Position numbers and translations under genes: made by a program. Source: a virus. From it: 22,800 nt of DNA. This document shows, in pieces, positions 6,784-22,800 of this stretch; position 1 is the first letter of the stretch, and every line of letters starts with the position of its first letter. Location: IMG/VR virus record IMGVR_UViG_3300025093_000135, positions 1-22,800 of that record; one strand, given 5' to 3'. The notes beneath the pieces are model-generated. The model worked only from the letters and a program-made list of their open reading frames with translations. It was not told the DNA's origin and did no database searches.

Positions 6784-6795
6784 TTAACCCAAAAA

Positions 6796-6826
6796 GGAGG
6801 TGTTATCTGATAGCATCTCCTTTTTT
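6796..6826 (+). terminator. Rho-independent terminator or attenuator before primase
   Basis: GGAGGTGTTA (6796-6805) pairs with TAGCATCTCC (6811-6820), ten pairs including two G-U, with a 5-nt loop and six T residues. It is a canonical intrinsic terminator in form. It ends only 12 nt before the primase ATG, leaving no room for a promoter after it, so it probably attenuates rather than fully separates the transcripts. Confidence 0.75.
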
Positions 6827-6838
6827 ATGCTTTATACT

Positions 6839-7831
6839 ATGATCAGAACAGTTACTATAGTATCAGAGCTATCTGAAGTTCCAATTGAATGGGTATTTGA
6901 ACATTATCTAAACCTTCCTGAAAAGTTATCAGGACAAGATGTAAAAATCAAATCCGTGTTTGGAAATAAAGATAGAAATCCATCTTTATGCGTGTATTAC
7001 TCAATGACCAAGAGAAAGTATATGTTTAAAGATTTTTCTGCAGATAAGGGTGGTGATCACGTAAACCTTGTAAAAGAGTTATTCAATTATCCAAAAGCAA
7101 CTCAAGCTATAATGAAGATTATATCTGATTACAATCAATATACTCTAACTAATGGTACACATATCATTAAAGAGTTTAAAGTGCGTAACAAGTATAAAGT
7201 TTCAGAATACCAGCTTAGAAATTGGACAATATATGATCAGAAGTATTGGATGAATTATAGAATTGATTCAAAGACTCTTGAGAAATATAACGTGACTCCC
7301 TTAAAAGGCTATAAAATGTCTAATGATGATGGGACAATGTCAATAAATGGTTTGTATTTGTATGGTTACTTTACTAAAAAGGGCGTTCTATACAAGATAT
7401 ATCAACCAATGACTGAAAAAAGCAAGTTTATAAAAGTAAGCAGCTATATACACGGTCATGATCAACTGACCTTTGACAAGCCTTATTTGGTCATATGTAG
7501 TTCTCTAAAAGATGTAATGGCTTTTGATAAGCTAGGATTTAAAAATGCTGAAGCTATTGCACCTGAAAGTGAAAACACTCTGATACCAGAAAACATAATG
7601 GAAAAATACATAGACAGATATGATAAAGTCTGTACTCTATTTGATAATGATGTCCCTGGTATTAGATCTATGGAGAAATACAAAAATAAATATAGAATAA
7701 AATCAGTTCGCTTAAAGCTTGAGAAGGATTTATCTGACTCAATAGAAGCTCATGGGATAAACAATGTAAGAATACATTTATATCCTCTGCTAACAAAAGC
7801 TTTAACAGGAACAATAAAAAACATACCATGA
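6839..7831 (+). CDS. DnaG-type primase with Toprim domain
   Basis: The protein should make RNA primers for the phage polymerase. I use the ATG at 6839 (MIRTVTIVSEL); GTG 6800 and ATG 6827 lie inside the terminator hairpin or its T-run. The N-terminal part carries KYMFKDFSADKGGDHVNLV, the fold seen in primase zinc-binding domains, but without the Cys/His ligands. The Toprim core shows VICSSLKDVMAF, then IAPESENTL, and LFDNDVPGIRSMEKY with the DxD-type acidic pair. The usual Glu of the first Toprim motif is replaced by Ser within SSLKDV. At 330 aa it is shorter than bacterial DnaG and lacks a helicase-binding domain. It ends in an ATGA overlap with the nuclease gene. Confidence 0.8.
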   Translation: MIRTVTIVSELSEVPIEWVFEHYLNLPEKLSGQDVKIKSVFGNKDRNPSLCVYYSMTKRKYMFKDFSADKGGDHVNLVKELFNYPKATQAIMKIISDYNQYTLTNGTHIIKEFKVRNKYKVSEYQLRNWTIYDQKYWMNYRIDSKTLEKYNVTPLKGYKMSNDDGTMSINGLYLYGYFTKKGVLYKIYQPMTEKSKFIKVSSYIHGHDQLTFDKPYLVICSSLKDVMAFDKLGFKNAEAIAPESENTLIPENIMEKYIDRYDKVCTLFDNDVPGIRSMEKYKNKYRIKSVRLKLEKDLSDSIEAHGINNVRIHLYPLLTKALTGTIKNIP

Positions 7832-8286
7832 GTTGGAGATATCACAATGGCAAAAAGCCTGTTGAGTTTACAGATAATATGATACCTGAAGGTGCATATG
7901 GTTTTATCTATCTAATGACTGTTGAAATAGATGGAGATGTAAAGTCTTACATAGGCAAAAAGAATTTCTATTCAAACCGTAAAAAGAAGTTTGGGAAGAA
8001 AGCTCTTGCAGCTATGACAGACATGCGTAAAAAGAAGTATGAGATAGTTAAAAAACTCTCATATCAGAACTATTATAGCAGCAATGAAGTGATAAAACAA
8101 GCTCATAAAGATGGTGTAAATGTAGATAGACATATACTTAAGATATGCTATAGCAAAGCTGAACTAACTTATGAAGAAGTTAAAGCTCAGTTTAAATATG
8201 AAGTGTTAGAGGATGATAAATATCTGAACTCTAACATATTAGGTAAATTTTATAAGAGATGTAAAGATGATGTACACAAGAAGTAA
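7828..8286 (+). CDS. GIY-YIG-like endonuclease, 152 aa
   Basis: GFIY (residues 25-28) and YIG (41-43) lie 16 residues apart on predicted strands, the diagnostic pair of GIY-YIG nucleases. A basic helix follows (RKKKFGKK), and a C-terminal segment has a Glu and Asn (EVLEDDKYLNSNILGKF) that fit the later catalytic positions. The size matches the compact T4-like GIY-YIG endonucleases. It is translationally coupled to the primase (ATGA), so it may process replication or recombination intermediates, degrade host DNA, or be a homing-type enzyme that has become fixed. No intron is visible beside it. Confidence 0.72.
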   Translation: MSWRYHNGKKPVEFTDNMIPEGAYGFIYLMTVEIDGDVKSYIGKKNFYSNRKKKFGKKALAAMTDMRKKKYEIVKKLSYQNYYSSNEVIKQAHKDGVNVDRHILKICYSKAELTYEEVKAQFKYEVLEDDKYLNSNILGKFYKRCKDDVHKK

Positions 8287-8710
8287 ATTAGAAAAATTTT
8301 CAGGTCTCCTAAGCCTAGAAAATAAAAACATAAGGTTTGTATATATAACCTATGATGGCTCTGGAGATGATGGATCAATTGAAGGAATATATGCATTCAA
8401 TTTAGAATCAGCTATGGAACATATGGGGTGGGATAATCTACCAGAGGATTATATACAAGAATTAGTTGAAAATTTTGATGGAATTTGGATTTTACCACGC
8501 ACAATAACAGAAATTAAAGTTAATGAGGAAGATAGAAAGCTCCTTGAAGATTTTGGTTACAATGCTCTAAGTGGGATTGGTGATTGGTATAATAATGATG
8601 GTGGTTATGGATTCATGGTTATAGACTTGCTATCTACAGAGTACTATATAGATGCCAAGTTTAGGTATATGTCTGAAGAAACTGAATATAAATCTGGAGA
8701 ACTATTTTAA
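8267..8710 (+). CDS. DUF6878-like protein, 147 aa
   Basis: The sequence has the two landmarks I associate with DUF6878: an early YITYDGSGDDGSIEGI (about residues 26-41) and a late GDWYNNDGGYGFMVID (about 105-120), both acidic and Gly-rich, with a helical middle. Function unknown. The Asp/Asn-Gly clusters could bind metal. The gene overlaps the GIY-YIG gene by 20 nt and is followed after 2 nt by a DUF6915-like gene, all leading into the VWA/MoxR pair. The family name is recalled from pattern and needs a profile search. Confidence 0.5.
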   Translation: MMYTRSKLEKFSGLLSLENKNIRFVYITYDGSGDDGSIEGIYAFNLESAMEHMGWDNLPEDYIQELVENFDGIWILPRTITEIKVNEEDRKLLEDFGYNALSGIGDWYNNDGGYGFMVIDLLSTEYYIDAKFRYMSEETEYKSGELF

Positions 8711-8712
8711 CT

Positions 8713-9054
8713 ATGGCACATCCAATGGAACATGCAAAATCTTCAGTTAGAAAGTGGGGAGGAGTACCAGAAGATTATTTACAAATACATGAATGGTTTG
8801 ATGAAACTAAGGCTTGGATAGGTCATAGTAAGCACAGACTATTCAGACATCACAGTGAAGGAATCTTTGAATGTGAAAAGACATTTGGTAAATCCTTTGT
8901 TAACTCAGATGACAAAATTGTATATACAAGATATGTTGGAGAGCAACATGTTAAAGAAGACTGTTATGGTCACATACCATCTGCTAAAGAGTGGATAGAT
9001 AATTTAAACACTCCTAAAGAGTGGATGCTAAGAACACAAAAAATACAAGACTAA
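8713..9054 (+). CDS. DUF6915-like protein, 113 aa
   Basis: A short His/Trp-rich protein starting MAHPMEHAKSSVRKWGG, with PEDYLQIHEWFDETKAW, then HRLFRHHSEGIFECEKTFG and VGEQHVKEDCYGHIPSAKEW. This ordered set matches the family I know as DUF6915. Several His residues (HEW, HRLFRHH, EQHVKED) could form a metal site. Its stop overlaps the next ATG as TAATG, so expression is coupled. No function is known for the family to my knowledge. Its frequent occurrence in phages and mobile DNA is recalled, not checked. Confidence 0.65.
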   Translation: MAHPMEHAKSSVRKWGGVPEDYLQIHEWFDETKAWIGHSKHRLFRHHSEGIFECEKTFGKSFVNSDDKIVYTRYVGEQHVKEDCYGHIPSAKEWIDNLNTPKEWMLRTQKIQD

Positions 9055-9455
9055 TGGAAGTAATATTAACTAAAGATAAAATAGAAAGAGTTAGAAAGAT
9101 GCTCAGTAGTGTTAATGAGGAAGACAGAGTAGTAGCCTTTGAAACAATGGAGCAGCTTAACTTTAAAGAAAACGTAGCTCATATATTGATTGCTATAAAA
9201 GAATCAAGGTATACAAATATTAATACTAAGTATTATACTGAACATTTTCCAAGCTTTGTAAAGCATGTAGGAGAAATTCATTCTAATGCTCTTACATATG
9301 AAAAGATCCTGGAGATAACACACAAAACCAATCCTGATAAAACAGACGTTGTAAAAGAATATATAGAAGAAAGAATTCTACATCATCTAGAAAACGTTCA
9401 AATAGATTTTATTGAGGATATAAAAATAACTTTAGATGGAAGATTTAGCAGATAA
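9054..9455 (+). CDS. Helical (HEAT-like) protein, 133 aa
   Basis: I start at the ATG at 9054 (MEVILTKDKI); a longer frame begins with GTG 9021 inside the previous gene. The protein is all-helical. Residues 13-51 (VRKMLSSVNEEDRVVAFETM and the following helix with FKENVAHILIA) resemble residues 242-280 of the 374-aa protein at 12014-13138, with about 9 of 39 identical plus conservative matches. Such helix pairs suggest a HEAT/ARM-like scaffold. It overlaps the VWA gene by 20 nt. The position before the VWA/MoxR pair suggests an adaptor role (inference). Confidence 0.55.
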   Translation: MEVILTKDKIERVRKMLSSVNEEDRVVAFETMEQLNFKENVAHILIAIKESRYTNINTKYYTEHFPSFVKHVGEIHSNALTYEKILEITHKTNPDKTDVVKEYIEERILHHLENVQIDFIEDIKITLDGRFSR

Positions 9456-10680
9456 AATTTATTCAACAGCTGAGCTTAAAGATAGCTTAGCAAGAGTATG
9501 TAAAGATCTGATGTTTGATGAACCCTACTATGGTTTATTTCTACTTACAGTAAATAAATCATGGCAGGATAACATAGGAACAGCAGGAGTATGTCTAAAT
9601 GGTATAAACTATGATTTAAGAATCAGTCCAAAGTTTTGGTCATCTTTGTCTAGTGATCATCAGAAAGGCTTGCTTAAACATGAGCTTCTTCATATTGCAT
9701 TTTTTCATTTGACTGACTATAATCATTTAACTGATGCTAGAGTTAGAAACATTGCAATGGATATGGAGATTAATCAGTACATAAAACCTGAGTGGTTACC
9801 TGAAGGTGGAGTAGATATAGATTCTCCAGAGTTTGCAGCTATGAATCTGAAAAGAAAGGCTGGTACTCAGTATTATTATGATGAGCTCATGAAGCAGTGT
9901 AATACTAATTGTAATAACCCAAACCCAGTTGTAATCATTTGTGATGCAATGGATAATGGAGATCAAACATGCACTCTTCCTGATGGTACACAAATAATTG
10001 TACCAGATCATGATTGGCAAGACATGGAAAATGTAGATGAAGCTACTAAGAAAATGATACAAGCTCAGACAGGACATATTCTTAAAGAAATTGAAGAACA
10101 GGTCAAGAAGTCTAATCCAGGTAACATACCAGGAGAGCTAGCAGAAATACTTGAAAAGCTATCTATTATAATTCCTCCTAAGTTTGATTGGAAAGGTTAT
10201 ATGAGAAGATTTGTAGGGAAGTCTACTAAGATTTACACTAAGAAATCTAGAAGAAAGCTCAACAAAAGACTTCCAGATTTTCCAGGGTTAAAGATCAAAA
10301 AGCAAAAGCATGTACTTGCAGCAATAGATACATCAGGTTCTGTTAATAAAGATGAGCTTAAAGAATTCTTTAATGAATTATATCACATTAACAAGACAGG
10401 AACAGATGTAACAATAGTTGAATGTGATACTGCTATTTCGTATATTGGAGAGTTTGATCCCAACAAAGATTTGGAGATACATGGTAGAGGAGGTACATCC
10501 TTTCAGCCAGTAATAGATTACTATAACAAAAACCTAAATAAATATAGTTGCTTATTCTATTTCACAGATGGAGAAGCATCTACACCCCATGATGCAAAAG
10601 GTAATATTCTATGGGTATTATCTAGTGTTTCAAATATGAATGAAAATTTACCAGGAAGCGTAATTAAATTAGAACTATGA
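9436..10680 (+). CDS. Metallopeptidase-like / VWA domain protein (DUF2201-type)
   Basis: A two-domain protein of 414 aa. The N-terminal domain has the zinc-metallopeptidase signature HELLHIAFFH (residues 82-91) and a following NIAMDMEINQYI (105-116) that could supply another ligand. A long linker leads to a C-terminal von Willebrand A-like domain with MIDAS residues DTSGS (298-302), Thr354 in GRGGTSF and Asp378 in FTDGEA. This is the architecture of DUF2201-type proteins, which pair with MoxR AAA+ ATPases. The pairing is seen here: its stop overlaps the ATPase start by 4 nt (ATGA). Such pairs generally act as metal-dependent chaperones or remodelling machines. Whether the HExxH site is proteolytic is unknown. 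Confidence 0.82.
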   Translation: MEDLADKIYSTAELKDSLARVCKDLMFDEPYYGLFLLTVNKSWQDNIGTAGVCLNGINYDLRISPKFWSSLSSDHQKGLLKHELLHIAFFHLTDYNHLTDARVRNIAMDMEINQYIKPEWLPEGGVDIDSPEFAAMNLKRKAGTQYYYDELMKQCNTNCNNPNPVVIICDAMDNGDQTCTLPDGTQIIVPDHDWQDMENVDEATKKMIQAQTGHILKEIEEQVKKSNPGNIPGELAEILEKLSIIIPPKFDWKGYMRRFVGKSTKIYTKKSRRKLNKRLPDFPGLKIKKQKHVLAAIDTSGSVNKDELKEFFNELYHINKTGTDVTIVECDTAISYIGEFDPNKDLEIHGRGGTSFQPVIDYYNKNLNKYSCLFYFTDGEASTPHDAKGNILWVLSSVSNMNENLPGSVIKLEL

Positions 10681-11927
10681 ATCAAATTAATTTAGACTCA
10701 GCAGAGATGAAGGATTTTCTTCATCACATAATAACAAATAATAGATATATACAGAATACAGGAAAGGTTCCTGTATCAACAGAAATCATTGGAGATTCTG
10801 GTCTTGGTAAGACTAGTATAGCGTTGCAACTTGCTAAAGAGTATGACTTAAACTTTGTCAAGCTTAATTTAGCACAGATTGAAGAGCTAGGTGACCTAGT
10901 TGGTTTTCCAGTTAGACAGTTTCAATTGTCTAAAGGTGGAGAAACCAAAACTAAAATGGTAAAGGTTACTGATGCTGATGGAAAGGTATCTTTTCAGAAG
11001 AAAGAGGTTCCAGGTGGTAAGACAGTATGGGTAGATGAGAACGCAACTGATGAGTATGCTAAACAAGGATTCTCTTTCACTGGTAAGAAGAGAATGTCTT
11101 ATTGTCCACCTGAATGGATTGCTGATAAAAAAGGTGGTGGTATTTTGATTCTAGATGACTGGAACAGAGCTGACATAAGATTTATTCAAGCTGTTATGGA
11201 ATTAGTAGACAGACAGGAATATATCTCATGGAAGCTTCCTAAAGACTGGCACATAGTTTTAACAGCTAATCCAGACAATGGAGAATACTTAGTTAATACT
11301 ATTGACGTAGCTCAGAGAACTAGATTTGTTAGCACAAGCTTAAAGTATTCTAGTGACAGATGGGCAGAGTGGGCAGAGAAAGAGAATGTAGATTCTAGAT
11401 GTATAAACTTTATGCTAATGCATCCAGAGGTTGTATCAGAAAGAGTTAATCCAAGAAGTATAACTACATTCTTTAATTGCATCAGTTCATTTAAATCATT
11501 TGAAGACAATCTTCCAATGATACAAATGGTTGGTGAGGGTTCTGTGGGCCCAGAAGTAGCCACACTATTTACTCAGTTTATTAATAATAGACTAGATAAA
11601 ATAGTAACACCAAAGCAGATATTGTTTGGAGATGATAACGTAACTGTTAAGACTTCAATATTATCAGCTACAGGTAGAGGACAAGACTTTCGTGCAGATA
11701 TAGCTAGCGTTATAACTACAAGGGTAGTCAATTATATACTCAACTATGCAGAGAATAACACAGTAGCAGGAGATGTTATTAGCAGGTTGAATTTCTTAGT
11801 AAACGATGAGGATTTATTTACTGATGATCTTAAATACATTATTGTAAGAAGATTGATTAATGGAAATAAACTTAAGTTTCAAAAGATGTTGACTAATCCT
11901 AAAGTGCAGGAAATGACTTTAAAATAA
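10677..11927 (+). CDS. MoxR-type AAA+ ATPase
   Basis: Walker A is GDSGLGKT (residues 39-46). The Walker B strand ILILDDWNRAD (D160, D161) has Asp in place of the usual Glu but keeps the N-R-A that is typical of MoxR (consensus LDEINRA). Sensor 1 is LTANPDNGEY and an arginine-finger region is AQRTRFV. The protein has 416 aa with a long insertion between Walker A and B (about residues 60-145). It is coupled to the VWA/metallopeptidase gene by a 4-nt overlap. MoxR ATPases use ATP to drive conformational change in targets recognised by VWA partners. The block ends with a hairpin at 11966-11991. Confidence 0.82.
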   Translation: MNQINLDSAEMKDFLHHIITNNRYIQNTGKVPVSTEIIGDSGLGKTSIALQLAKEYDLNFVKLNLAQIEELGDLVGFPVRQFQLSKGGETKTKMVKVTDADGKVSFQKKEVPGGKTVWVDENATDEYAKQGFSFTGKKRMSYCPPEWIADKKGGGILILDDWNRADIRFIQAVMELVDRQEYISWKLPKDWHIVLTANPDNGEYLVNTIDVAQRTRFVSTSLKYSSDRWAEWAEKENVDSRCINFMLMHPEVVSERVNPRSITTFFNCISSFKSFEDNLPMIQMVGEGSVGPEVATLFTQFINNRLDKIVTPKQILFGDDNVTVKTSILSATGRGQDFRADIASVITTRVVNYILNYAENNTVAGDVISRLNFLVNDEDLFTDDLKYIIVRRLINGNKLKFQKMLTNPKVQEMTLK

Positions 11928-11965
11928 TCAATCAAACATTTTAGTAGGCCTTAATCACTAATTAA

Positions 11966-11998
11966 CAGGGGACTGTATGGCGTGTCCCCTGATGTTTT
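11966..11998 (+). terminator. Hairpin terminator after the MoxR gene
   Basis: CAGGGGAC (11966-11973) and GTCCCCTG (11984-11991) form a perfect 8-bp GC-rich stem with a 10-nt loop, followed by ATG and four T residues. It ends 15 nt (from the T-run) before the ATG at 12014, so it may attenuate into the following gene rather than fully stop transcription. Confidence 0.65.
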
Positions 11999-12013
11999 AT
12001 TAATAGAAAGAAG

Positions 12014-13138
12014 ATGAAAAAATACACAATATTATATATTGATGATGCTGGAGAATTAAATATCAAATACAAAAAACTTTATAGCTCAACTCACTTTGAA
12101 CAAAAGTCAAAACGTTTTCTACGTAAAGTAGATGATGAAAAGAAGTGGGATGGTGCTAATGAGCCTGTATTTATAGGCCCAAATTGTACATTATCTAGAT
12201 TTAAAGTAAGAGAAAAAACATCTATAACTTACTCTTTTGAAAAGAGTCAAGCTGCATTCTTTGATTTAGGGGATATATATGGTTTTTCACCAAGCCAATT
12301 TGTAAACTCAAACTTTTATGTTAAAGAAGAATATACAAAGATGGGTGCTTCTGATAAATGGTTTACAGAACTTTTACTTCTTGCAAAATCAGATAAAGTT
12401 GAGGGTGTTACAGCCAATATCAATAAGATTCTGAACTTTAAAAAGTTAGCTCAATCTAATAATGAAGGTGTTGCAACTTGGTTACTAGAAAGAGAATCCA
12501 CTAGTAGTATTATAAAACTGCTTTGTGATAACTTTAATTTAAATCTTACTCAGTTAGATCATCGTATAAGATATTCTTATGCTGAAGGATATTATGTGCC
12601 TAGTGAAAAGCTTGGTAGAGATATAATCGCAGCTGAAGATAATGATCCTATCTTTGATAAGATTTATGACATAGGTTGGTTAAGTACATTTATTCAAGGT
12701 GAAGCTATAGTTATAGATCAAAATAAGTATGAAGAGCTTAGTAAAATGTTAAACACTAGAGATGAATCAAATGTGACATTAGCTATGGAGATAATGGCTA
12801 ATACTAAGTTTGAAGAAAGCTTTCATTATTTATTCATGCTATTTTATAATCATAGTAATGAAATAGAGTGTTCAAAAACAAGGAATCATGTAAACTTTAA
12901 ATCATTAACTAAAAAGTTCAATAGTTTTGGCAGGAGCTGGGATCAGATATATTCTGCAGACAATTGGTCATCTGCTAACTTGCAGTATGTTACTGCAGCA
13001 TTAATTAAAATGAATCAGTTTACAGAAGAAAAGATGAGCATGCTTATAGATCTACTTAAGCCTAAAATGTTTAGTGACAATGAGTATTATGATTTAGCTA
13101 TAGAACCAAAGGAAGGAGCGTTTGATGATGGAGAATAA
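12014..13138 (+). CDS. Hypothetical helical protein, 374 aa
   Basis: An unrecognised soluble protein. The N-terminal 100 residues are basic and partly beta (KKYTILYIDDAGEL, KWDGANEPVFIGP). The rest is helical with aromatic residues. Residues 242-280 (LSKMLNTRDESNVTLAMEIM and the following helix with FEESFHYLFML) resemble the helical segment of the 133-aa protein at 9054, hinting at a shared HEAT-like fold. It lies between the MoxR gene and the PD-(D/E)XK nuclease, after a hairpin, and its end overlaps the nuclease start by 14 nt. It could be a partner of the VWA/MoxR module or a recombination factor; neither is shown. Confidence 0.6.
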   Translation: MKKYTILYIDDAGELNIKYKKLYSSTHFEQKSKRFLRKVDDEKKWDGANEPVFIGPNCTLSRFKVREKTSITYSFEKSQAAFFDLGDIYGFSPSQFVNSNFYVKEEYTKMGASDKWFTELLLLAKSDKVEGVTANINKILNFKKLAQSNNEGVATWLLERESTSSIIKLLCDNFNLNLTQLDHRIRYSYAEGYYVPSEKLGRDIIAAEDNDPIFDKIYDIGWLSTFIQGEAIVIDQNKYEELSKMLNTRDESNVTLAMEIMANTKFEESFHYLFMLFYNHSNEIECSKTRNHVNFKSLTKKFNSFGRSWDQIYSADNWSSANLQYVTAALIKMNQFTEEKMSMLIDLLKPKMFSDNEYYDLAIEPKEGAFDDGE

Positions 13139-15220: not shown

Positions 15221-15237
15221 CCGTCTAGCACATAGAA

Positions 15238-15267
15238 GGAGAGTTTAGCATAAGCTCTCCTTTTTTT
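15238..15267 (+). terminator. Rho-independent terminator or attenuator before PolB
   Basis: GGAGAGTTTA (15238-15247) pairs with TAAGCTCTCC (15251-15260), ten pairs with one G-U, GCA loop, followed by seven T residues. It is the best formed intrinsic terminator on the plus strand. The PolB start codon lies 19 nt after the T-run. Confidence 0.8.
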
Positions 15268-18821: not shown

Positions 18822-18851
18822 AAAGGGGGTTTTATACCCCCCTTTTTTTTT
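18822..18851. terminator. Bidirectional terminator at the convergent junction
   Basis: A G5/C5 stem (GGGGG at 18825-18829 with CCCCC within 18837-18842) is flanked by AAA and by nine T residues (18843-18851). It sits between the rightward gene ending at 18818 and the leftward gene ending at 18850. The T-run is strong for rightward transcripts; leftward transcripts get a weaker TTTAATTT. It marks the end of the replication block. Confidence 0.8.
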
Positions 18852-21800
18852 ACTTGGCTTTAGACATAGCCTGAGCAGTAGTGATGCCTTTCATACCCTT
18901 GGCAGGATCTAAGCTACTACCAGTTAGACCAAGCATTCTACCAAACTGAGCCCATACTTTATTACCCCCTTCTTGTTGCCAAGCATAAGGACCTACTGTT
19001 CTTTTATAGTAAGACTTAGTACCGCCAGTTGCTATATCATAAGAGTTTTCAATAATCTGTTTATAACTCATAACTGTTGGACCAAATACAATTGACTTCA
19101 AATCTAACATGCTAGTTAGTGAGCTTAATCCCATACTTGGTAAAGGAATGAATTGTTCGTTCTCAGTTCTTATATTATACAGTAATAGTAGAGAATGATT
19201 CTCAAGCCAGCCTCCAATATTAAATGGTCTATCCATATCTGCATTAGTCATAAAGAATGGTAGAGCCCCACTCTTTTCTCTAAGCTTAGCAAATCTTTCT
19301 TCATCATCAGGATCCCACCCAAGCAACGCACTCATAAGAATTGGTAATGATATAAGCATTCCTACTTCAGTTATAACTTTTAGAGCAGCAGATTTTTCTT
19401 CTGCATTCATATATGGCAAGTTAGCACCTAATTTAGATACTGTTTCTCCTGCTGTTTTTAGGAACTGAACATAGTATCCCATTTGTACATCACCCATTCC
19501 AGGATTAAGTCTTGGTTTTGGATCCCAGATGCTACCAGAAAAGCCATACCTGTTAACCATCATACTAGTAAAGTATCTTCTCAAGTAAGATAAGAATCTA
19601 AAAGCTAGATATCTTTGTGCTTCAGGTTGATCAAACTTTGCATAAGTACCCTGCAGATTATTCATAACCTGCTGCATCTTATTCTTGTAGAAGTTAAACT
19701 CACTATTCTTAATAGTAATAGTCTTAGCCTCATCAATTTTACTCTGATGATAACTCTTGATGTTCTCAATTTTATCCTTTAACAGCTGTTCTTCTTCAGG
19801 AGTTTTAGCTGTAGACACATCCACGTTAGCAACCTTCTCATCTCTTTCTTTCTCAATCTTAGCAACCTTTTCATTAATGTTGTCAATTGAATATTTTCTA
19901 AAGACCTCATCTACATCTTCCTTTGGGATATTATATTTTTCAGCTATTTGCTCAAAAGTTTCACCATCCTGCATAAGATGTTCAGTTGAAGTATTATTCC
20001 ATCTAACATCAATGCCTTGCTTTAATACAATTTGTTTATCCTCATTCAACTCCCAAGCATCAACATAGTTCAGTTGTTTCTTTGTACCATCGCTTAAAAC
20101 CTGGTCAACTTTTTGTCTATACATCATACCACCAAATATTTGCGTGGTTGCTTGAAGTTCTACCCATTTACGTGGAGAGTATAACCAACTAAACTCAGCA
20201 GTATCTTTTAAAACAGTTCTAGATAAACCTTCACCAAACTTATCAGCAAATCTGTCCTGAGATGGATCAAAAATTTCCATGATCTGCTGCCTTAAAGATT
20301 TGGGCCCTTTTTTATAAAGCTGGTTATTAAAACTTAATTCAGCCATTGTAGTATAAGACCAAGCATTTCCTTTTTGAAATTCAATATGATTATAGTATTT
20401 TCCTGCTGATGCTTCAATCATTCCCTGGAATTTTGCACCGTAGGAGTTTTTCAAAGCAGATGGAATGTTTAATGCAAAGAATCCAAAAGATGCTCTACTA
20501 AAAAGCTTATTAGCAAAGTTATTTAGAAATACAGAATTAGCACCAGCACCTGTCATTGTCTCACCTTCAAATTCTCTAGCAATAAAATTATCAATAGCTT
20601 TCTCCCTCACACTCTTAGTCCCTTTCTTATTCTTAGGTAAGAACTTTAATATGTTTCTATTAAGCCAAGTTTCTTTATTCACTTTAAGTGGATCCTTTAT
20701 CTGACCAGTTCTTTTAACAACACTTTGTATTGCCTCAGCAGCAGGAGATGCTTTAATCAGAGCTTTTTGTCTTTCAGCAGAAAGCATATATCTCATCATA
20801 GAAGTAGTAATATCCGTGGATACATCACCTATGTCTATATCATATAAGCCAGAGATTGGTACACTAGTCTGCTCATTATCAAACATATCTGCTCTAATCA
20901 AGTTAAATTCATCTTGATAATTGAATCCGCTTTCAGCATCATCTGCAGTTCTCCTGAAAAAGTCTTTAACACGTTGAGCCCAAATAGTAAGTGCATTAAC
21001 TCTTTTCTTAGCTCTACCTTTTACAGATGTTGTTTGCCATACCTCAAGATTAGACTTTCTATATCTAGGCATATCAAGATAAAGCCTGCTTCTATAGTTT
21101 AATCCTTTTTGGTTTTCTAGATGATGCTCTTTAAGTTTTTCCAGTAACTCAAATAAAGGTTTGTTATTCTCCTTCATTTCATAGTACTTCTCATTTATGT
21201 ACTTTGTGTTTTCAGGATCTACTTCATCTTTACCTCTAGGTAACCATTGACCTCTATTGTCCACAGTTTCACCTACTACTCTAGGAGTTCTAAACTTAGA
21301 CTTTAAAACACTTGCATAGTATTTTCTAGCAGGAAGACCCATTACAGTTTCCTCTTCCCCTTTACTATTTACAATTGTATGTGTCTCATAATACTTTTCA
21401 TCAGATGGTTTAGTTACAGTCCAAGCATATGTTGGTTTATACTCTGTTACTTCTACTCCTTTTCTGCTTCCTTCAACACGTTTAAAAAAAGTTTTAGACA
21501 TGTGATTTGTGGTAAACCATTTACTGAATTCAGGTGATTGTGATTTTAAATATGCTACAAGACTTTCATTAGTGAGTATAAGATTAACATTAGATTTATT
21601 AATACTTGTGTTCTCTCCTAGAACTGCCTGTATCTCACCTAAAGCCTCTTCATTGAATCTAGTTACAAAATTATTAAATGTATCTACATAGTCATCTGTT
21701 ACAGATGAGCTCATCATTTCTGCAAGCTGATTATAAAGTTTATTGAGAGTATCAATGTCTTCTTTACTCAACTTATCTCCTCTAAGCTCATTTAGTTTAG

Positions 21801-22800
21801 AGTATTTGATAAAATCATCTGGTCTGGAGTTTTTAAAGTTATTATAACCCATCTCATCAATCATAGATAGAAACTCTCTATAGTCAGCATTCTCTTCTTT
21901 AGTAAGACCTGTTATACCTTTTTGTCCAGATTTTATTTTCTCAATCTCATCCTGAAGATCTTTTATACCCTGTAAAGCACCTTCATCTAATTGATTACCT
22001 CTAGGTTGACCATTCTCATCTTTAAATCCAGCCGTGAGATCAAAAATTTTTTTCCATCTTTCTGATATATCTAAATCAGCCTTTGCTCTAGAACCAAGCT
22101 TAGACATTATAAAAGCAATGTTATCCAGTATAACCTTTCTTTGCTCAAACCATTCTGGCTTAATCTTAGTTACTATATTCTTGTCAATCCAAGCAGACCT
22201 AAGAGTATTGTAATAATCTTCAGTTGTAGGATTATCAGGTGTAATACCTCTATCAATTAGAGATATTTCATATGCATGCAGAGAGTTTTCAAAAACATCT
22301 TTTCTTAGTTTTTGATCATACATACCTTTAGTAAGCTCATTGTATTCTTTAATACGTAAAGCAATAGATTTATCAAATATCCCTTGCTCAGGTATATCAA
22401 CTTTAGGTTGACCATTTAAATAGTACAATGATGAAAGCTGTCTGTATTCTCTCCAGAGCATATCCAGACGTTGCTCTTTTTCTAAATCTTCACCAATTTC
22501 AACATCATCAACTATTGAGTTGATTTGCTCCATTATAGTCTTTCTTCTATATGCAGCTTCAATACCAATTTCATCTTTTTCAAAAAGTTCCTGCCTCTTG
22601 TAGTAATCAGCAGTAAACTCATCATGCATGTATTTTCTTTTGAAATCATTAAAGTCTGCAATAGCTCTAATCATTTCTTTCCTAGATTTTTCAGTTCCTT
22701 GGTCAGAATGATTAACAGTAGCTTTTTCTACAGCATCAGCAAGAACATCATAATCATATCTCCAATTCTTATGAGGGTTGAGGAAAGTAAGAACTTCTTT
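18850..22800 (-). CDS. Giant virion-associated-type protein, C-terminal part (5' end outside window)
   Basis: The leftward frame is open from the right edge to TAA at 18850-18852 (1316 codons visible, no stop). The ATG at 22674 is internal: 42 further codons continue beyond it, including FLNPHKNWRYDYDVLADAVE, in normal composition. The protein is charged and mostly helical, with a coiled-coil region (about 19670-19900), a LysM-like stretch (DGETFEQIAEKYNIPKEDV, about 19920-19980), a hydrophobic segment (VGMLISLPILMSALLGW, about 19320-19380), and a C-terminal YYKRTVGPYAWQQEGG motif. A giant ORF on the strand opposite the replication genes fits the large virion-packaged proteins of crAss-like phages (RNA polymerase and cargo proteins). 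I see no RNA polymerase catalytic motif in this part. Confidence 0.7.
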   Translation of the reverse strand, partial: KEVLTFLNPHKNWRYDYDVLADAVEKATVNHSDQGTEKSRKEMIRAIADFNDFKRKYMHDEFTADYYKRQELFEKDEIGIEAAYRRKTIMEQINSIVDDVEIGEDLEKEQRLDMLWREYRQLSSLYYLNGQPKVDIPEQGIFDKSIALRIKEYNELTKGMYDQKLRKDVFENSLHAYEISLIDRGITPDNPTTEDYYNTLRSAWIDKNIVTKIKPEWFEQRKVILDNIAFIMSKLGSRAKADLDISERWKKIFDLTAGFKDENGQPRGNQLDEGALQGIKDLQDEIEKIKSGQKGITGLTKEENADYREFLSMIDEMGYNNFKNSRPDDFIKYSKLNELRGDKLSKEDIDTLNKLYNQLAEMMSSSVTDDYVDTFNNFVTRFNEEALGEIQAVLGENTSINKSNVNLILTNESLVAYLKSQSPEFSKWFTTNHMSKTFFKRVEGSRKGVEVTEYKPTYAWTVTKPSDEKYYETHTIVNSKGEEETVMGLPARKYYASVLKSKFRTPRVVGETVDNRGQWLPRGKDEVDPENTKYINEKYYEMKENNKPLFELLEKLKEHHLENQKGLNYRSRLYLDMPRYRKSNLEVWQTTSVKGRAKKRVNALTIWAQRVKDFFRRTADDAESGFNYQDEFNLIRADMFDNEQTSVPISGLYDIDIGDVSTDITTSMMRYMLSAERQKALIKASPAAEAIQSVVKRTGQIKDPLKVNKETWLNRNILKFLPKNKKGTKSVREKAIDNFIAREFEGETMTGAGANSVFLNNFANKLFSRASFGFFALNIPSALKNSYGAKFQGMIEASAGKYYNHIEFQKGNAWSYTTMAELSFNNQLYKKGPKSLRQQIMEIFDPSQDRFADKFGEGLSRTVLKDTAEFSWLYSPRKWVELQATTQIFGGMMYRQKVDQVLSDGTKKQLNYVDAWELNEDKQIVLKQGIDVRWNNTSTEHLMQDGETFEQIAEKYNIPKEDVDEVFRKYSIDNINEKVAKIEKERDEKVANVDVSTAKTPEEEQLLKDKIENIKSYHQSKIDEAKTITIKNSEFNFYKNKMQQVMNNLQGTYAKFDQPEAQRYLAFRFLSYLRRYFTSMMVNRYGFSGSIWDPKPRLNPGMGDVQMGYYVQFLKTAGETVSKLGANLPYMNAEEKSAALKVITEVGMLISLPILMSALLGWDPDDEERFAKLREKSGALPFFMTNADMDRPFNIGGWLENHSLLLLYNIRTENEQFIPLPSMGLSSLTSMLDLKSIVFGPTVMSYKQIIENSYDIATGGTKSYYKRTVGPYAWQQEGGNKVWAQFGRMLGLTGSSLDPAKGMKGITTAQAMSKAK

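Follow-up and report, generated by a model that had tools for sequence, protein, structure and literature searches.

Pairs formed by a MoxR-type AAA+ ATPase and a von Willebrand factor A (VWA) protein are already known in phages. In jumbo phages (group 2.2), a MoxR protein and a vWA protein with an N-terminal metallopeptidase have been described, and a role in virion assembly was proposed by the authors (PMC7824862). In N4-like phages, the AAA ATPase and vWFA protein gp24/gp25 are core genes (PMC4193335, PMC2784036). Here we analyse a further pair, carried by IMG/VR virus record IMGVR_UViG_3300025093_000135 (positions 1 to 22,800, hereafter the window), a 22.8-kb fragment with 33% GC from an uncultured crAss-like phage. 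A preliminary description had put forward the pair and its companions as a possibly undescribed phage system; the precedents above take that novelty away from the pair itself. What may be new is a third component, a 374-amino-acid (aa) protein called BIG here, whose family is constantly associated with the pair and of which no description was found in the open-access literature (subscription papers lay outside the search). The same literature yielded no paper linking crAss-like phages with MoxR. MoxR-VWA pairs being core to whole phage groups, as with N4 gp24/gp25, a strictly linked partner family offers a handle on their client.

As in jumbo phages, the window MoxR protein adjoins a vWA domain fused to an N-terminal metallopeptidase, in the same domain order; unlike the jumbo-phage pair as described, it comes with a constant BIG, often with a small paralogue of BIG, and lies in the replication operon of a smaller, crAss-like phage (PMC7824862). 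The zincin-VWA protein is homologous to that of N4 (25-28% identity), but the gp24/gp25 order is MoxR then VWA, the reverse of the window, and neither of the two N4-like regions that were examined yielded a BIG-family protein. Another viral MoxR and VWA protein, p618 and p892 of Acidianus two-tailed virus, interact and are proposed to act in tail development; they belong to an archaeal virus, have other domain sizes (PMC4124505), and the VWA protein is described as lacking a peptidase domain (PMC7824862). Two MoxR chaperonin subunits were also noted in Bacillus phage 0305phi8-36 (PMC2147016).

NorQ-NorD and RavA-ViaA likewise combine a MoxR AAA+ protein with a VWA partner bearing the residues of a metal-ion-dependent adhesion site (MIDAS), but have cellular metalloenzyme or respiratory targets and neither a fused DUF2201-type zincin nor a phage partner family (PMC9976466, PMC10585395). 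For NorQ-NorD it is proposed that the VWA domain plugs the AAA+ ring, that its MIDAS holds on to the target by an acidic residue and that ATP hydrolysis is relayed to the target without threading (PMC9976466). The bacterial ternary MoxR-vWA conflict systems share with the window a third, modular and fast-evolving component, VMAP or iSTAND in their case (PMC7159879). Unlike these systems of multicellular bacteria, the window trio is phage-borne, its BIG component matches no Pfam family, and its VWA protein has an N-terminal zincin and no variable C-terminal effectors. Neither BIG nor the small partner matched VMAP, iSTAND or any other described third component in Pfam and PADLOC.

The VWA-MoxR-BIG core and its conservation

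Between positions 6839 and 13138, the genes follow in the order primase, GIY-YIG, DUF6878, DUF6915, a helical 144-aa protein (the small partner), zincin-VWA (DUF2201), MoxR/AAA_5 ATPase and BIG. All genes named in the preliminary description are present at the positions it gave, with the motifs and the 4-nucleotide (nt) overlap it reported, and Pfam searches supported primase, GIY-YIG, DUF6878, DUF6915 and DUF2201, the AAA match falling just under its cut-off. The zincin-VWA gene (9436..10680, + strand; DUF2201_N 1.7e-15, DUF2201 6.7e-16) encodes HELLHIAFFH (HExxHxxxxH) at aa 82-91 (nt 9679-9708) and the MIDAS sequence DTSGS at aa 298-302 (nt 10327-10341), the latter in a VWA domain (aa 295-412 of 414) that ends the protein. 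It shares nt 10677-10680 with the MoxR gene (10677..11927, +), identified by Pfam AAA/AAA_5 matches of about 7e-4 to 9e-4, slightly below the curated cut-offs, by PHROG and by its motifs: Walker A at aa 39-46 (nt 10791-10814) and a Walker B ending in D160 D161 (nt 11145-11159). Judged by sequence, an intact Walker A/B MoxR thus adjoins a MIDAS vWA with fused N-terminal metallopeptidase, which are the hallmarks of the jumbo-phage pair. The genes had been said to form a single run with the primase. They do form a series, yet an 87-nt gap with a stem-loop (11966..11991, +) parts MoxR from BIG (12014..13138, +); the whole gap folds only slightly better than shuffled sequences (z -1.2).

To follow this arrangement among relatives, loci from two independent viral scans (MoxR-based and VWA-based) and from one genome scan were annotated with iterated hidden Markov models (HMMs). 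The 86 loci spanning the slot from primase to PDDEXK nuclease gave 59 after dereplication at 90% VWA identity. VWA, MoxR and BIG were each present in 59/59, always in the same order, and because the three are kept throughout, their order is far beyond chance. The other slot genes were found in constant order as well, in 46 (small partner), 37 (GIY-YIG), 33 (DUF6878) and 32 (DUF6915) of the loci. The expectation of a MoxR/zincin-VWA pair with dedicated companions, kept in set and order in a phage replication operon, is therefore borne out for VWA-MoxR-BIG; GIY-YIG, DUF6878 and DUF6915 turned out to be frequent but optional.

The association extends beyond this operon. When only loci with flanks of at least 1.5 kb on both sides were counted, BIG adjoined VWA-MoxR in 90/90 crAss-like and 20/20 second-lineage phage loci (110/110), and the one flanked locus that lacks it (L095) is a remote pair of bacterial origin. 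Across the two lineages BIG can lie on either side of the pair. In the second lineage, the surroundings of the trio contain terminase and portal genes (L042) or baseplate wedge genes (L050, L054); no replication gene of the window was found there. The trio is therefore a module that is portable and has no fixed tie to replication.

The catalytic residues show the same constancy. Walker A, Walker B, TxNP and R216 did not vary in 56 unique MoxR proteins, nor did HExxHxxxxH and the MIDAS residues (DxSxS) in 49 unique VWA proteins; the sensor residues of the ATPase are constant as well. These zincin and MIDAS residues are likewise invariant in the PBS1, cyanophage, N4-like and Alteromonas homologues. 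Compared with solved structures, the MoxR profile was nearest to Midasin AAA+ modules, and the VWA profile, in the region of its zinc motif, weakly matched MJ1213, a small protein of archaea (E 0.008). The zincin-VWA family is labelled 'HNH endonuclease' in PHROG (phrog_1314) and in many phage records; given the Pfam assignment to metallopeptidase and VWA, this label is probably a spreading mis-annotation.

The two 'helical' proteins of the preliminary description proved to be members of one family. BIG comprises an N-terminal alpha/beta domain with a PRxK motif, a variable linker and a helical C-terminal domain (about nt 12695-13069), the last shared with the all-helical small partner (9048..9455, +; first possible start GTG 9021), whose gene overlaps the start of the VWA gene. 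The small-partner profile aligns to BIG residues 231-352 (hhalign probability 96%, E 1.4e-9), so that the small partner is the BIG C-terminal domain as a free protein; AlphaFold gave a confident helical domain in both. Tandem BIG pairs are frequent, and the copy number of BIG and small partner varies among relatives. These two evolve faster than any other protein of the slot: their mean pairwise identities are 20-21%, compared with 44% for primase, 53% for VWA, 57% for MoxR and 70% for DUF6915, the most conserved. Iterated HMMs were required to find their relatives: scanning with either protein as a single sequence found none, tblastn with BIG gave no match in isolated phages, and neither protein matched a Pfam family above its cut-off (for the 144-aa protein, a weak RSV_NS2 match under the cut-off was set aside). 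Foldseek searches with the two models gave nothing significant in the PDB; against viral models, the matches of BIG (1e-7, 7e-6) were uncharacterised proteins from uncultured phages, a crAss-like virus among them. The possibility that BIG came from cells was rejected, as the genome contigs bearing BIG also carry crAss-like genes and true bacterial MoxR-VWA pairs (L095-L097) have no BIG.

Towards its N-terminus, BIG shows the pattern DxIYxxPxxxxPRxKxK...TxDxxKADxxI across 98 diverse members. This region (about nt 12149-12290) is tentatively BRCT-like, by profile comparison. Of the profiles tried, LigA BRCT aligned best and in matching register (hhalign P 1e-4 to 5e-4, in a comparison made after the resemblance had been noticed), and 0/100 column shuffles scored equally well. 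BRCT was also the commonest weak Pfam match of the region (7/39 members, all below cut-off). No BRCT match was obtained in the PDB or by Foldseek, and the model of the N-terminal part is poor.

A putative remodelling machine and its client

Two things are seen directly: two phage lineages keep the three genes as a set, and the active-site motifs of the ATPase and of the zincin-VWA protein are invariant. We propose, with a probability of roughly 0.55, that VWA-MoxR-BIG is a phage-borne, three-component, ATP-driven remodelling chaperone with its own client or adaptor subunit. MoxR would form an AAA+ hexamer, on whose ring the VWA domain would dock, its MIDAS metal site gripping an acidic side chain of the target as proposed for NorQ-NorD. 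BIG and its small one-domain paralogue would serve as dedicated adaptor or first client, the helical domain engaging VWA-MoxR and the variable N-terminal domain of BIG picking the final target; the rapid evolution of these partners is as expected of a specificity subunit. ATP hydrolysis would then remodel the target, which the fused zincin might also clip. By analogy with the proposal made for the jumbo-phage pair (PMC7824862), the final target would most plausibly be a phage protein, either part of the virion or ejected. Several observations weigh against this proposal. N4-like phages, PBS1, cyanophages and Alteromonas phage AD45 carry a VWA-MoxR pair with no detectable adjoining partner, so that the partner is dispensable for some such pairs; the crAss-like lineage has the trio in a replication operon, away from virion genes; and the BIG model is confident in its C-terminal domain only.

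Action on the replisome had been raised in the preliminary description. On this reading BIG would recruit MoxR-VWA to DNA ends or to the primase, helicase or polymerase and so aid assembly or turnover of replication complexes. Such a role fits the constant position of the trio, which every crAss-like relative has in the slot from primase to PDDEXK nuclease, and would also fit a LigA BRCT-like N-terminus of BIG. However, the same three-gene core adjoins baseplate or terminase and portal genes in the second lineage, with none of the window's replication genes found nearby, and the crAss-like phages of gut and of Cellulophaga manage replication with a different gene content of that slot; we therefore consider a replisome role unlikely, a virion or ejected target being the better fit to the gene distribution. 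Improbable too is a takeover or counter-defence role, in which the machine would take apart or cut a complex of the host and its fast-evolving partner would track the host target. Its appeal lies in the rapid evolution and variable copy number of BIG and small partner and in an operon position suggestive of early expression, but rapid evolution equally fits adaptation to phage proteins, and the anti-defence function raised in the preliminary description found no support in PADLOC, where the core proteins matched no defence model apart from a single weak match of the ATPase. That the operon reflects history only, VWA-MoxR forming a chaperone of two parts to which BIG and the small protein are unrelated passengers, would account for the pairs with no detectable adjoining BIG in N4-like phages, PBS1, cyanophages and Alteromonas phages; it is very unlikely in view of the trio being kept in two lineages of different backbone, where BIG may precede or follow the pair.

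A bolder version of the proposed three-component chaperone is speculative and rather improbable. In it, the trio would represent a phage-specific machine class that acts on a large protein of the virion or one that is ejected; its undescribed adaptor family, with a BRCT-like N-domain, a helical domain and single-domain paralogues, would pass from one phage to another, unrelated one. On this version one candidate client can be named. N4-like, PBS1/AR9-like and crAss-like phages all package their own RNA polymerase. Members of all three groups carry MoxR-VWA pairs, which makes the packaged polymerase complex a candidate; 121Q-like jumbo phages and cyanophages carry such pairs too, so the correlation is not strict.

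Introns, neighbouring genes and the host phage

The MoxR gene is interrupted in five relatives, near codon 166-168, right after Walker B, in L093, L120, L135 and L173, and at codon 43/44, within Walker A, in L128. A group I intron scored above the Rfam gathering score in 4/5 of them (L093:1467-1724; L173:3408-3643; L128:8002-8233; L135:3604-3830), L120 being the exception. Open frames that by eye resemble GIY-YIG endonucleases lie within the inserts of L128, L135 and L120. Mobile introns prefer conserved codons of indispensable genes. We therefore read the introns at ATPase active-site codons as a sign of MoxR importance, which suggests that the gene is indispensable to the phage. A free-standing GIY-YIG-like open frame lies between VWA and MoxR in another relative (L142:7223-7969), as in intronless homing.

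Upstream, the slot is bordered by a crAss-like Toprim primase (6839..7831, +; Pfam Toprim_2 1.5e-5, PHROG DNA primase), which lies outside the machine; in tblastn it matched 94 phage records, the crAss-like ones best. Its start is better placed at ATG 6839 than at GTG 6800, as a terminator-like hairpin with a U tract (6791..6825, +; -18.2 kcal/mol, z -4.7) covers position 6800 and relatives begin at the matching ATG. Relatives have hairpins at the same site with differing stem sequences, and the window has a second strong terminator-like hairpin (15234-15264) before the polymerase. Downstream of the primase follow the optional neighbours: a SegE-type GIY-YIG nuclease (7828..8286, +; Pfam SegE 4e-19), possibly of homing type, a DUF6878 protein (8267..8710, +; Pfam 1e-9) and a DUF6915 protein (8713..9054, +; Pfam 1e-41). 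DUF6915 never occurred in the slot without DUF6878, and both were together in 32/33 cases. An initial count that made DUF6878/DUF6915 rare (15/81 loci) was discarded as a sampling bias, revealed by the VWA-based scan.

The order DnaB, Sak4-like AAA_24, primase, PDDEXK is common to the window phage, Cellulophaga phage phi14:2 and gut phage cr118_1. In the latter two, the primase-to-PDDEXK slot is occupied by other genes, and the window VWA and MoxR profiles found no match in the regions examined. Features of Crassvirales are present in relatives and not in the window fragment: crAss-type terminase and portal were found in 5/5 long relatives, and an open frame of 4,000-4,600 aa related to the phi14:2 virion RNA polymerase in 3/5. 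In cr118_1 (L087:19831-21810, NC_055872.1 gp28-gp29), a CbbQ-like AAA_5 ATPase adjoins a DUF7192 protein; a search of five long aquatic crAss-like relatives did not find this ATPase, and they carry MoxR-VWA instead. The crAss-like contigs L090-L093 were binned as Campylobacteraceae, Pseudomonadales and Sphingomonadaceae genomes, probably an artefact. On the minus strand of the window, three consecutive small membrane/coiled-coil proteins (1992-2844) resemble by eye a lysis cassette with spanins, and 18850-22800 belongs to a giant gene, of which the window has the 3′ part (at least 1316 aa). Relatives keep this gene as a frame some 2,000 aa long, and its product is possibly ejected together with the virion RNA polymerase.

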